A DNA stretch of 37,974 nt. Origin: an uncultured Alteromonadaceae bacterium. Lineage in GTDB: Bacteria > Pseudomonadota > Gammaproteobacteria > Pseudomonadales > Halieaceae. Made by a program: the position numbers and the translations under genes. Location of the stretch: the NCBI GenBank assembly GCA_913064725.1, contig CAJYAI010000021.1:1-37974 (forward strand), read 5' to 3'. Under the pieces are notes generated by a model. It had not been told where the DNA came from and did no database searches. It worked only from the letters and a program-made list of their open reading frames with translations. Each line of letters opens with the position of its first letter. The first letter of the stretch is position 1. This document shows positions 30,593 through 37,890 of this stretch, piece by piece.

Positions 30593-31882
30593 ATGTCAAC
30601 ACCACAAGCAGAATTCGGTTTCGGTACACAAATACGTAAATCCCCCTTTTTTGACGCAACGGTGCGCTGGGGTGCGCGGGACTTTTCGGTTTATAACCAT
30701 ATGTATATTCCGAGGGACTTTGGGGATCCTGAGCAGAATTTTTGGAACTTGGTCAACGAAGCTATTTTGTGCGACGTAGCCGTAGAGCGTCAGGTGGAGA
30801 TTACGGGGCCCGATGCTGCGCGCTTTGTGCAAATGCTGACGCCACGAGACCTGAGCCAATGCGCTGTGGGGCAATGCAAATATGTGCTTATCACCAATGC
30901 CGACGGCGGTATTCTTAACGATCCCGTATTGCTCCGATTGGCAGAGAACCATTTTTGGTTGTCTTTAGCCGACAGCGATATCCTGCTCTGGGCGCAGGGT
31001 GTCGCCGTTCACTCGGGGCTGGACGTCACGATCTGTGAGCCTGATGTATCGCCGTTGCAACTCCAAGGCCCTCGGTCAGGCGATATTATGGAAGCGCTGT
31101 TTGGTGAAGAGATTGCTGACCTTAAATACTATTGGTTACGACATTACACCCTAGACGGTATTCCCCTCGTGGTTTCTCGCACAGGCTGGTCTAGCGAGCT
31201 GGGATATGAGATTTACCTGCGAAATGGTGCACACGGGGATGCCCTTTGGGAAAAGATTATGGCGGCCGGGGCGCCGTTTGGGCTAAAGCCTGGACATACA
31301 TCGACTATCCGGCGCGTAGAAGGTGGCATGTTGTCGTATCACGCCGACATGGATATTCACACTAATCCTTTTGAGCTGGGTCTTGATCGACTCATTAATC
31401 TCGATATGGAGGCCGACTTTATAGGGAAGCGAGCGCTGACGGCGATTCGAGCGACGGGTATTACGCGAAAGCAGGTGGGTGTTGTGATTGCAGGCGAGCC
31501 ACTCGCCGCGCCGAACACGCGCGCCTGGTCTCTTTCCAGCGGCGCGGGTCAAGTAGGCTACGTTACCTCGGCTGTTTACTCTCCTCGTTTAGGCAAGAAC
31601 GTTGCACTGGCCATGGTGGATATGGATTACGTGGAGTTGGGAACAGAGCTCACAGTGAGTCTGTCGGGCGAGGACCGCAGTGCGACCGTTGTTGAAAAGC
31701 CATTTTACGATCCTAAAAAGCGCCTCGCCTCAGTTAGTTCGGTAACCGCCCAGTCAACGGACATTGAGGTGCCCCAGGTAAGTAATGTTGCTACTGAGGT
31801 CGATATCCCGGAGCGCACTTTGGACGCTTTTACACCCGTCAATGACGCCGCCCACGCTGAATCAAGTGCTACCATCGGCTAG
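30593..31882 (+). CDS. dmdA: DMSP demethylase DmdA
   Basis: A 429-residue member of the GcvT superfamily. It resembles Pelagibacter DmdA rather than GcvT along its length: FSVYNHMYIPRDFGDPE near the N-terminus, ERQVEITGPDAARFV with TPRDLS, LNDPV near residue 110 where GcvT has a DD pair, WLSLADSD, NPFELGLDRLINLD and FIGKRAL. DmdA moves a methyl group from dimethylsulfoniopropionate to tetrahydrofolate, yielding methylmercaptopropionate. A crotonase and an acyl-CoA ligase follow, fitting the downstream steps. Odd points are a low-complexity tail of about 50 residues after the catalytic core, absent from the Pelagibacter protein as I recall it, and a weak ribosome binding site. A paralogous GcvT-type demethylase of another specificity is the alternative. 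Confidence 0.85.
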   Translation: MSTPQAEFGFGTQIRKSPFFDATVRWGARDFSVYNHMYIPRDFGDPEQNFWNLVNEAILCDVAVERQVEITGPDAARFVQMLTPRDLSQCAVGQCKYVLITNADGGILNDPVLLRLAENHFWLSLADSDILLWAQGVAVHSGLDVTICEPDVSPLQLQGPRSGDIMEALFGEEIADLKYYWLRHYTLDGIPLVVSRTGWSSELGYEIYLRNGAHGDALWEKIMAAGAPFGLKPGHTSTIRRVEGGMLSYHADMDIHTNPFELGLDRLINLDMEADFIGKRALTAIRATGITRKQVGVVIAGEPLAAPNTRAWSLSSGAGQVGYVTSAVYSPRLGKNVALAMVDMDYVELGTELTVSLSGEDRSATVVEKPFYDPKKRLASVSSVTAQSTDIEVPQVSNVATEVDIPERTLDAFTPVNDAAHAESSATIG

Positions 31883-34963: not shown

Positions 34964-35491
34964 TCATCCTTTATTGCTAAGCGCCGCTATTACGTCATCG
35001 ACGATCGCATCAGCTTTCTCACGAATCTGGTCACCTGTCGCGTCCTGAATGGGATGCGATACTAGTAGGTACCTCGCATCAGCCATACCCAGAGCCTTCG
35101 CCTGGATTTTTGCGGCGTCCCCAAATTCTGTCGAGGCAATGGCCACAGCAGGCTTTTTCTCGATTTCAAAATAAACGGTGTCATGCAAACTGCACGACGT
35201 ACAGGAACCTCAGTCGGCAAGACCTATGACAACAAAGTCATTGATTTTTTTGATCTCCCTGCGCAGATCAGCCGGCGCCGGTTTTGAAAAGGTGGGTTTT
35301 TGATACCGATTAACTTCAACTTGAGGAAGTCGCCGTTCCATCGCTTCCTGAAGACGGTCTAAAAACTCATCGCTCCGCCTTTTAGCAATATCAAGCAGGG
35401 CGACCTTGCCTACGATCGCCTCCGGTCTTGGTGTTATCTGTCGAGCAACCGGTACCTCTTCGTTGGTCGGATCTAGCAATGTCACTGACAT
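34964..35491 (-). CDS. UGSC-family selenoprotein (in-frame TGA as Sec94)
   Basis: Two adjacent open frames, 35210-35491 and 34964-35209, are in the same frame and separated only by TGA at 35210-35212. Read through as selenocysteine they give one 175-residue protein with the motif GLAD-U-GSCTSCSLHD, the signature of the UGSC selenoprotein family first seen in marine metagenomes. U94 and the cysteines at 97 and 100 would form a redox centre. Helical text after it (FGDAAKIQAKALGM, ATGDQIREKADAIVDDV) stays family-like, arguing against a dead gene. The start ATG 35491 has AAGGAG at 35498-35503, 6 bases upstream. A hairpin at 35180-35198 suits a SECIS. The gene lies 20 bases after the thioredoxin-fusion gene. 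Biochemical function is unknown. Confidence 0.87.
35180..35198 (-). promoter_or_regulatory. Putative bacterial SECIS hairpin
   Basis: On the minus strand GTCGTGCA (35198-35191) and TGCATGAC (35187-35180) pair over 8 positions, one G-U, closing a GTT loop. The loop begins 20 bases after the TGA and starts with G. Bacterial SECIS elements lie immediately 3' of UGA with the apical loop usually about 16-37 bases away and a G at the loop start, so this fits SelB binding. Confidence 0.78.
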
Positions 35492-35511
35492 ATCACTCTC
35501 CTTTACCTCAC

Positions 35512-37083
35512 TTACATATAGTCGTCTATTTTTCTGGAAACCGGAATAGAGCCCATACTTCTGGGGATCCAGCCGTGAAAGAATGCGGTGCATTTACCAG
35601 CCTCGCTGCCTGCCACAACAATTTCAATGTGATCTTCCGCACCGAATTTTCCGATTCGCCTATCGGCCGGTAGCTGAGCCAGGCCGGCAAGCTGTTCCGG
35701 TGATGCACTCGGGCCTTGAATAAGCTCTTGCACGGACTTTTCACTGGCTTTCTGAATGTCTCTGCGCAAGGCGGATTTGCTAACCTTGCCACGTTTAAAA
35801 ACATCGTTGTGCTCTGGAGAAACAACCATCAGGCAGTTTGAAGAAGCGTACCAGTTGGCATTGAACATGCCTTTAGTAGCTTCGCCGATGGCTGCGGCCA
35901 GCACAGGTGCTTCGGTGGTTGTTTCATCAAGAATCAAAGTTGGACCTGCCGACATGGCAAGCGTTGTAACCACCGAATCGTTGGCGTCAAACCCGCGATC
36001 AACATGAAACGGATCCCAGCAGGACCTCTCTTCCCACTCGGCAAAACACATGGTGAATTTCATGGGGTTTGAAAATGTCGAACGCTCTGTGCCGCCTGGC
36101 TTTGCGCCACCAACGTTGCGGATGACCAGCCTGAGTGCGCGGCCGATCGTCGCATTGGCCCGATTTCCCTGGCCTAGCGCGCCTAGCCCCATGTTCATCT
36201 TCAGAAGATGGCGAATTGGACCGTTGACAATCATGACTGGACTAGCACCCATAGTCGTTGCCATGACGCCATGGATATTAAATTCATCGGTGCACACGGC
36301 ATCAACTGCCGCCATGACGACTGGCAGGTACTCAGGTCTGCATCCAGCCATGACAGCGTTGATGGCAACTTTCTCGACGGTGACCTTCGCCATGTTCGGC
36401 GGCATGATGGCGATCACCTCCTGCGGATCTAGACTTGTACCCTGCAGCATGCTGAGCACTCTTTGAGGCGTTGGTGGAATAACCGGCAGGCCGTCAGTGA
36501 ATCCTTGATCAAACATGAACTCGAATTCGTCGTCTTGGCTGCCCATCTCTATTCGTCGCGCTCTTATCGGACTGTTTTCTGCCTCAGCCTGAAGCCGTTC
36601 AGCATGCAGCGGATCGACTGAAAGTGAACCACAACCTGGGCGCCAGCTGGGGAGTGAGTCCCATTCAACCGTATGTTGAGTAATAGCGTGTTGTTCGAAA
36701 AGTTCAGCGACCAACTCTTGCCATTCCTCACGGACAAAACCGCTGCGTTCGACCAGTACGTGGCCCCCGGAGTCGGTCAGAAATACCTGGGGTACGATTT
36801 CAATGTCATTGGTAAACGATACTTTTAGCGCGCTGTCATCGAGCAGATTGAAGGGGGGGTCAAACTCACTCATTAACCGGGAGTTACCACTACTGGTCTG
36901 ACCGATAATAAAAAAGTCGAGTTCACTGGATAGCGAATCATGTATGGCCGCTAGTACGGGTAGGACGAGCCTGCAAGTAGGGCAGTCCTCTTTGATAAAA
37001 CAGACAAGAGCTCGGCGCGTACTGGGGAAGCTGCGCTCTATGCCCGAGGAGTCTTCCAGTGTGAATGGGGTGATAACTGACAC
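35512..37083 (-). CDS. Thioredoxin-fold protein fused to a UGSC-associated domain
   Basis: A 523-residue protein. Residues 1-125 look like a thioredoxin/AhpC-type fold with a C-P-T-C motif (IKEDCPTCRLVLPVL, near residue 34) and VPQVFLTDSGGHV as the cis-proline region. A linker follows, and from about residue 165 a large domain begins (FTDGLPVIPPTPQRV, AINAVMAGCRPEYLPVV, GQGNRANATIGRALRLV). I recall that domain in widespread proteins of unknown function, often with UGSC-type partners. There is no signal peptide. The first codon is GTG 37083 with only a weak ribosome binding site. It is 20 bases upstream of the selenoprotein, so the two probably exchange electrons or share a substrate. The Cys-x2-Cys pair could reduce the selenoprotein. 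Confidence 0.75.
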   Translation of the reverse strand: MSVITPFTLEDSSGIERSFPSTRRALVCFIKEDCPTCRLVLPVLAAIHDSLSSELDFFIIGQTSSGNSRLMSEFDPPFNLLDDSALKVSFTNDIEIVPQVFLTDSGGHVLVERSGFVREEWQELVAELFEQHAITQHTVEWDSLPSWRPGCGSLSVDPLHAERLQAEAENSPIRARRIEMGSQDDEFEFMFDQGFTDGLPVIPPTPQRVLSMLQGTSLDPQEVIAIMPPNMAKVTVEKVAINAVMAGCRPEYLPVVMAAVDAVCTDEFNIHGVMATTMGASPVMIVNGPIRHLLKMNMGLGALGQGNRANATIGRALRLVIRNVGGAKPGGTERSTFSNPMKFTMCFAEWEERSCWDPFHVDRGFDANDSVVTTLAMSAGPTLILDETTTEAPVLAAAIGEATKGMFNANWYASSNCLMVVSPEHNDVFKRGKVSKSALRRDIQKASEKSVQELIQGPSASPEQLAGLAQLPADRRIGKFGAEDHIEIVVAGSEAGKCTAFFHGWIPRSMGSIPVSRKIDDYM

Positions 37084-37311: not shown

Positions 37312-37890
37312 CTAGTACTGAACCTTATGACCACGCATTACGGTGCTACGTAGGTCCAGAGAGTCGAGACTCATAGTCTCGGGAGCATTGATATCGTTAA
37401 GTTTCAAGTATGGTTCGTAGGACGCTAGTTTGCTGGAGCCATTACTGATCGCGTTGAGCGTACCACGGAATATTGCATGATCTGTCACCGCGTAAAAGTT
37501 GAGAGGTTGACGCAGTTGCACATCAAACCCACCAGAATGTCTGATTTTTTCACCTCTCGCATAGCGATAGGCATCGCCTAGTGTTGCCAGGGTGCCGTAA
37601 GCGGATGCATCAAGGTAATAGGCGGTGTGAACGTGCAGATCTCCAAAGTAGGCCTTTCGCGAAGTCTGTTTGTCCGGCTGGAGAGTCAATGAGTCTCCGG
37701 GGATTTCATAGCGAGGGTCGAATGCTGCTGATGCGGGATTTACCGGGGTAGGGTCAGTTGATGAAGATTGATTCGGCGGTATTTCAGACCAACCAACGGA
37801 CAGGCAAAGTAACACTAAAAGGAAATCAACTCGCGTGATCCGAGATTTGGTTCTATCTAATGTAACTGGCGTAAGTATTTTCGATATCAT
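37312..37890 (-). pseudogene. Truncated DUF3604 (PHP-like) protein gene
   Basis: A 192-residue open frame with a signal peptide (hydrophobic core LLVLLCLSVGW). Then come the recognisable N-terminal DUF3604 segments: FGDLHVHTAYYLDASAYGTL with metal-ligand-type histidines, DAYRYARGE, and LNFYAVTDHA. Family members usually run to about 600 residues or more. Here the frame ends at TAG 37312-37314 shortly after the first third, and the following sequence does not continue the family in any frame. This points to a deletion or nonsense mutation. TAG is not a selenocysteine codon, so read-through is not expected. The start ATG 37890 overlaps the end of the upstream open frame by 38 bases. Confidence 0.65.

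Follow-up and report, generated by a model that had tools for sequence, protein, structure and literature searches.

The UGSC gene and its recoded TGA

The window analyzed here, a stretch of 37,974 nucleotides taken as a whole, is contig C21 of genome G000 (2.63 Mb, 98% complete). On its reverse strand it carries a predicted selenoprotein gene of the UGSC family, which is adjoined upstream by a partner gene whose C-terminal part, of about 330 residues, is a domain that we term U1. The features of the locus are as follows.

34964..35491, reverse strand: predicted UGSC-family selenoprotein gene, 175 aa with one Sec codon, ATG at 35491, stop TGA at 34966-34964
35210..35212, reverse strand: Sec codon TGA, codon and residue 94 of the UGSC gene, the sole internal stop of the frame
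35180..35198, reverse strand: predicted SECIS hairpin GUCGUGCA-GUU-UGCAUGAC, 8 bp with loop GUU, starting 11 nt past the TGA
35498..35504, reverse strand: AAAGGAG, read directly from the sequence as a likely ribosome-binding site 6 nt ahead of the UGSC ATG
35512..37083, reverse strand: partner gene of 523 aa, listed with a GTG start; its TAA stop precedes the UGSC ATG by 20 nt
36694..37083, reverse strand: thioredoxin domain, ResA/TlpA-like, at the N-terminus of the partner, with CPTC as residues 34-37
35536..36531, reverse strand: U1, the partner's domain without a name in Pfam or NCBIfam and the constant companion of UGSC

The preliminary description of this DNA held that standard gene calling splits the UGSC gene, and the plain list of open reading frames indeed breaks it into 35210-35593 (127 aa) and 34964-35188 (74 aa). 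The single in-frame TGA, at 35212-35210, falls on the U of the motif GLAD-U-GSCTSCS exactly as had been described. The joined 175-residue protein, for which an alignment to the family had been proposed, matches UGSC along its length, scoring 143.2 bits against NF041046 (curated cut-off of 125) and 149.9 bits against the Pfam UGSC model (PF24696, curated cut-off of 25). The family is defined by a motif position holding Sec or Cys and by a Cys three residues on, and the window gene has TGA at codon 94 and Cys at 97. It is a new member of the known UGSC family.

The relatives found on named genome contigs, at five loci, belong to Halieaceae, Pseudomonadales or unplaced gammaproteobacterial metagenome bins. 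Four of them (L021-L024, 71-99% identical) cover the TGA site, and all four preserve both the TGA and the frame; L025 is truncated before the site. Four positions are invariant among 36 UGSC members, namely U94 (read as Cys), C97, P114, and F123. A redox center with U and two cysteines had been suggested, of which U94 and C97 hold up, whereas residue 100, the third Cys of UGSCTSC, varies among the 36 members and was discarded as a part of the family's conserved center.

Exchange of Sec and Cys

In the 83 UGSC hits of the fetched loci, a count that includes the window and duplicates, the Sec position is a TGA 68 times, a Cys 12 times, a Met twice, and a gap once. The alignment of homologues continues through the TGA, where 80 of the 83 have TGA or Cys, and a Cys homologue is found even within the same genus (G858, L104, motif CGACSAC). 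Roseovarius sp. THAF8, a culturable carrier of the UGSC-U1 pair, also has the Cys form. Mapped onto a tree built from 61 distinct sequences, 48 of them with Sec, 11 with Cys, and two with Met, the Sec label requires 10 changes, at least six of them forced by well-supported branches. The label hardly clusters on this tree, because shuffled labels require a mean of 11.8 changes and 50 of 500 shuffles do as well as the observed labels; several rows sit on long branches, so that single placements are unsure. These repeated exchanges make UGSC well suited to the question of why selenium is employed. The two Met forms are diverged UGSC-U1 fusions on plasmids of Sporomusa (L122:6311-8035) and Vibrio (L123:6362-8047), with aconitase X and DUF126 genes nearby.

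The SECIS hairpin

The 8-bp hairpin with a G-first triloop that had been reported to begin 11 bases after the TGA is present at 35198-35180. Its stem includes one G-U pair, and 19 nt separate the TGA from the start of the loop. As a SECIS it fits the limits for bacterial elements stated in the relevant passage of PMC13188914, which are a stem of 4-16 bp, a loop of 3-9 nt with G in the first two loop bases, and 16-37 nt from UGA to loop. Synonymous-codon shuffles (300 draws) gave a p of 0.007 for this hairpin. The plain MFE z-score is weak and varies with the stretch taken (-0.51, -1.88, and -1.17), so that MFE alone would not have revealed a SECIS.

Under synonymous shuffles, 15 of 34 non-redundant Sec genes had p < 0.05, with a combined p of 1e-12 that is an overstatement because the 34 genes are related. 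A hairpin of 8-9 bp with the same spacing was found in 12 of the 12 non-redundant genes of the window's type. Ten of these were aligned, the other two repeating a third over that stretch; all cells of the alignment pair, seven pairs are invariant, and one pair covaries (CG in seven sequences, GC in two, UA in one). The observed covariation score was reached by two of 500 column shuffles, and the count of pairs changed on both sides by 212 of 500, because that count is only one. The hairpin set also contains two Cys homologues, one with a short weak hairpin (p 0.22) and the other with none. A simple perfect-stem search returned no significant hairpin in the second UGSC type (motif UGSCTTG, including the paralogue on contig C74 of the window's genome; p 0.07-0.54) and no hairpin at all in L038, a gene of the type fused to U1; most other U1-fused UGSC genes had hairpins with p of 0.05-0.4. 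An Rfam scan of the window gave no match.

The Sec machinery

The preliminary description implied a genome that encodes the Sec machinery, and selA, selB, selC, and selD were all located. The tRNA-Sec gene (selC) is at C46:19380 (72 bits, cut-off of 47), SelA at C46:16087 and SelB at C46:17460 are on one contig of the same genome as the window, and SelD is at C2:67638, on a contig other than that of SelA and SelB. A survey of 140 genomes of the family detected selA in 36 of the 40 genomes with TGA-UGSC, as compared to one of the five that have UGSC without TGA and 12 of the 95 without UGSC; the p of this association, uncorrected for kinship, is 4e-18. Cys was confirmed in two of the five (G858 and G859). 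The four TGA-UGSC genomes in which no selA match was found (G796, G815, G863, and G877) are 62-96% complete. Their coordinates place selA no more than 10 kb from UGSC in five genomes (G755, G775, G841, G861, and G885).

These data bear on the simplest alternative, that the TGA is an ordinary stop in a pseudogene or a product of sequencing error, which would agree with the splitting of the gene by plain gene calling. However, TGA persists even in relatives of only about 25% identity, at a position where others have Cys, it is followed by a SECIS, the Sec machinery is complete, and selA tracks the TGA-bearing genes. The conservation of TGA or Cys together with the tracking by selA led us to reject a pseudogene or sequencing error, and we give an ordinary stop practically no credence. 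On sequence grounds, the window gene is beyond reasonable doubt a selenoprotein gene.

The partner gene and the U1 domain

All 89 UGSC hits (87 loci, redundant) have a U1 on the same strand, either fused to UGSC or at most 398 nt away. Many of the 87 loci are near-duplicates, and three plasmid loci (L122, L123, and L125) were fetched through U1; the count leaves out 20 of the 55 UGSC hits of the genome search and takes in nine of the 17 UGSC plasmid records. The UGSC-U1 loci span Gamma-, Alpha-, and Betaproteobacteria, Actinomycetes, a Bacillota plasmid (with a weak UGSC), and haloarchaea. A search that started from U1 was positive in five of 398 genomes of the phylum, the window's genome included, and in five of the five further regions, which come from the other four genomes, UGSC adjoins U1. 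Three of these regions have TGA and two have Cys, and one holds two U1 genes for a single UGSC. Two haloarchaeal loci, L125:5314-8158 and L126:5917-8579, have UGSC between two U1 genes.

Eleven U1 columns are invariant among 22 members. Comparison of U1 with Pfam, NCBIfam, and PDB sequences yielded only scattered matches, the best of them at E 0.017, and kinship with a sequence of these collections was rejected. The AlphaFold model of U1 was of low confidence, with almost no confident residue, and a search of viral contigs with the partner protein gave no match. A passage of PMC2398784 describes UGSC fused to a conserved domain called Unknown_1, which is probably the U1 of the present analysis.

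Thioredoxin as proposed electron source

The N-terminal 130 residues of the partner have AlphaFold block means of 50-88, and the model matches ResA with a best E of 1.2e-9. Identity to this domain is 13-21% among the 50 structure matches listed, and a PDB sequence search with the partner reached a best E of 0.66, also to ResA. In 18 of 44 loci, a raw count, a thioredoxin or TrxB-like gene is present nearby or as a fusion; the 44 are the loci with longer flanks, close copies and short contigs being left out. Sixteen of the 18 were identified by BLAST (thioredoxin fusion or TrxB-like gene) and two, L098 and L102, by the CPTC motif, and several of the TrxB-like matches are only 29-38% identical. 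The other 26 loci, including that of the second UGSC type of the window's genome, showed none within the available flanks. In the clearest cases, the gene order is trxB-trxA-U1-UGSC in Arthrobacter, trxB adjoins UGSC in Roseovarius, and contig C2 of the gammaproteobacterial genome G332 groups a TrxB-like gene, selB, UGSC-U1, and selA (selA and selB assigned by clustering and by eye). According to a passage of PMC10298544, thioredoxin is the reductant of glycine reductase and has been ruled out for D-proline reductase, so that a tie to PrdB alone would not imply thioredoxin.

Probable relation to glycine and proline reductases

When 36 UGSC members were scanned at E up to 10, 14 matched TIGR01917, glycine reductase selenoprotein B, with a best E of 2.3e-6, and further matches were obtained with GrdF (12 members), TIGR01918 (five), PrdB (four), and GrdH (four); unrelated models also match 1-5 of the 36 members, at E 0.002 or worse. 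Ten members were rescanned at E up to 0.1, of which six match Grd models and four do not. The matches in this set cover positions 318-421 of 431-435, those inspected individually have E of 0.0005-0.1, and the scores of 11.7-19 bits are below the curated cut-offs of 65-800. The window's own UGSC protein matched no GrdB or PrdB model, and PF07355 was absent from the UGSC matches (Pfam, E up to 10).

An hhalign comparison of the 36-row UGSC alignment with ten GrdB/PrdB-like proteins gave 85.7% and a score of 45.5, with the CxxC in register, as opposed to at most 0.98% and a score of 19.4 in 40 column shuffles. The value falls to 47% with PrdB alone and to 54% with the Cys GrdB-like set alone, and the controls of UGSC against U1 and of U1 against the GrdB-like set gave 0.15% and 0.16%, respectively. 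Taken as sequence evidence, these comparisons point to a remote homology of UGSC to the Sec region of the B subunits of glycine, sarcosine, betaine, and proline reductases. U1 gave 0.12% against a single sequence of PrdA, a pyruvoyl-forming subunit; kinship of U1 with this PrdA was rejected, and the low score would speak against U1 as a pyruvoyl-forming partner.

Selenoprotein surveys, in their passages on UGSC, guess a thioredoxin-like fold (PMC2398784, PMC13188914). UGSC would then be a general thiol-disulfide or peroxide reductase to which U1 is an accessory, an explanation that suits the UxxC motif and the thioredoxin domain fused to the partner. However, hhalign of UGSC against 24 thioredoxin-like sequences gave 1.6%, over 17 columns, compared to the 85.7% for GrdB/PrdB-like proteins, and no thioredoxin family is among the Pfam and NCBIfam matches listed at E up to 10. 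The AlphaFold model of UGSC (five close sequences) is poor, with a mean pLDDT of 57.5, and weakly suggests a flavodoxin-like alternation of strands and helices, rather than a thioredoxin layout. The hhalign result speaks against a thioredoxin fold, and we consider this explanation quite unlikely. Foldseek found nothing for the UGSC model at E 0.001 or better, and PDB searches with UGSC, alone and as a profile, found nothing credible.

Genomic neighborhood and paralogues

CoA-type enzymes, such as CoA transferase, acyl-CoA dehydrogenase, malonyl-CoA synthase, and similar, are encoded near UGSC in seven of 11 annotated plasmid loci, a raw count. In the window, acyl-CoA synthetase and enoyl-CoA hydratase genes are on the strand opposite UGSC. 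Neighbors of this kind give only hints of organic-acid metabolism.

A further possibility is that UGSC and U1 carry out no small-molecule catalysis, and that U and C serve in metal binding or redox sensing and are reset by thioredoxin. The wide differences in neighbors from locus to locus and the Met at the Sec position of two distant relatives are in line with such a role, but relatives with neither U nor C there are rare (two of 83, plus one gap), the ten paralogues in one genome and the CoA transferase and acyl-CoA enzyme neighbors suggest metabolism, and the apparent homology is to catalytic subunits. We regard a metal-binding or sensing role as unlikely.

Several other genes were observed in the window and in related genomes. 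Near the enoyl-CoA hydratase and acyl-CoA synthetase genes, positions 30593-31882 (forward strand) encode a GcvT-type protein like DMSP demethylase that is below the family cut-off (378 vs. 410 bits). Before the partner gene, a DUF3604 gene at 37312-37890 (reverse strand) retains only roughly residues 1-185 of the approximately 694 present in L022 and is closed by a TAG. The match is the same in L021, a close relative, and the window gene looks like a deletion remnant. The window's genome contains a second UGSC selenoprotein gene (L050, G000:C74:550-981) with the motif UGSCTTG and its own U1 gene downstream, which is without a thioredoxin domain. In G332, at least 10 UGSC-domain genes with U1 have one TGA each (10 of 10 candidates scored, of 21); the UGSC loci of this genome are L029, L034-L042, and L055-L063. 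Judged by eye, several of the G332 UGSC genes start with an apparent signal peptide, and some are near PQQ-dehydrogenase-like genes.

Proposed function

The reading that we favor, with moderate confidence, is that the window gene encodes a genuine selenoprotein that serves as catalytic subunit in a two-part Sec/Cys reductase driven by thioredoxin and remotely akin to GrdB/PrdB. The computation supports the Sec signals and machinery, the family membership, the pairing with U1, the remote homology to GrdB/PrdB, and the thioredoxin fusion; the reductase activity, the role of U1, and the catalytic cycle are what we infer.

In the proposed mechanism, SelB with Sec-tRNA would decode the TGA as Sec, guided by the hairpin just downstream. 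The UGSC protein would be the catalytic subunit of the two-part reductase, its Sec-x-x-Cys pair sitting in a domain that may be remotely related to the Sec-bearing part of GrdB/PrdB-type subunits, while the partner's U1 domain probably serves to bind or position the substrate. Sec would attack an electrophilic substrate, or be oxidized by the substrate, and the product would depart. Sec and Cys-97 would form a selenenylsulfide, which thioredoxin, here presumably the CPTC domain fused to U1, would reduce again.

A broader proposal, which we offer tentatively and doubt more than we trust, is that UGSC and U1 constitute a reductase class across bacteria and haloarchaea that uses GrdB/PrdB-type Sec/Cys chemistry, with U1 as a new substrate partner replacing the pyruvoyl subunit and with electrons coming from thioredoxin. 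This class would have undergone repeated Sec/Cys swaps and would number at least 10 U1-fused copies in one gammaproteobacterium, several of them apparently exported; its chemistry possibly includes the cleavage of carbon-heteroatom bonds via a selenium-carbon intermediate.

UGSC is among the commonest selenoproteins of the ocean, with 8.2% of the selenoprotein genes in one survey (passage in PMC9402790). Its portrayal as a known, functionally uncharacterized family agrees with its listing in selenoprotein surveys (PMC2398784, PMC13188914), whose UGSC passages give no function. We found no published function for UGSC in the literature searched, which misses most subscription journals, and the UGSC passages of PMC2398784, PMC13188914, PMC9312934, PMC7539508, PMC5029168, and PMC9402790 made no link to GrdB/PrdB or to a thioredoxin partner. 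As far as these searches reach, the functional reading of UGSC is new, and neither the upstream partner gene nor the link to the glycine and proline reductase B subunits was a part of the preliminary description. With its constant U1 partner, a link to thioredoxin, and the distant tie to glycine and proline reductase, the function of UGSC becomes directly testable.

Comparison with known systems

With the UGSC family (NF041046/PF24696), the window gene shares its sequence, the U-x-x-C motif, the single TGA, and the SECIS; it differs in being a separate gene whose U1 partner bears an N-terminal thioredoxin domain.

The glycine, sarcosine, and betaine reductase B subunits (GrdB, GrdF, and GrdH) and PrdB differ from UGSC in several respects. 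The Grd models have 431-435 positions, whereas the window UGSC has 175 residues, and UGSC is far below the curated cut-offs of the GrdB/PrdB families. U1 is without similarity to the one PrdA tried from D-proline reductase, and the UGSC proteins considered here come from marine Halieaceae-type bacteria and haloarchaea. What these B subunits and UGSC have in common is the Sec-x-x-Cys pair and a local similarity around it. A passage of PMC13188914 gives UxxCxxC as the motif form of GrdB, and the window motif UGSCTSC is likewise UxxCxxC, although many UGSC members lack the second Cys. The GrdB/PrdB systems have a partner subunit, as UGSC has U1, and glycine reductase uses thioredoxin (passage in PMC10298544); in the window, a thioredoxin domain is fused to the UGSC partner. 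That domain, the N-terminal 130 residues of the partner, has in common with ResA/TlpA-like thioredoxin-fold proteins the predicted fold and the CPTC motif, and is distinguished from them by its fusion to U1.
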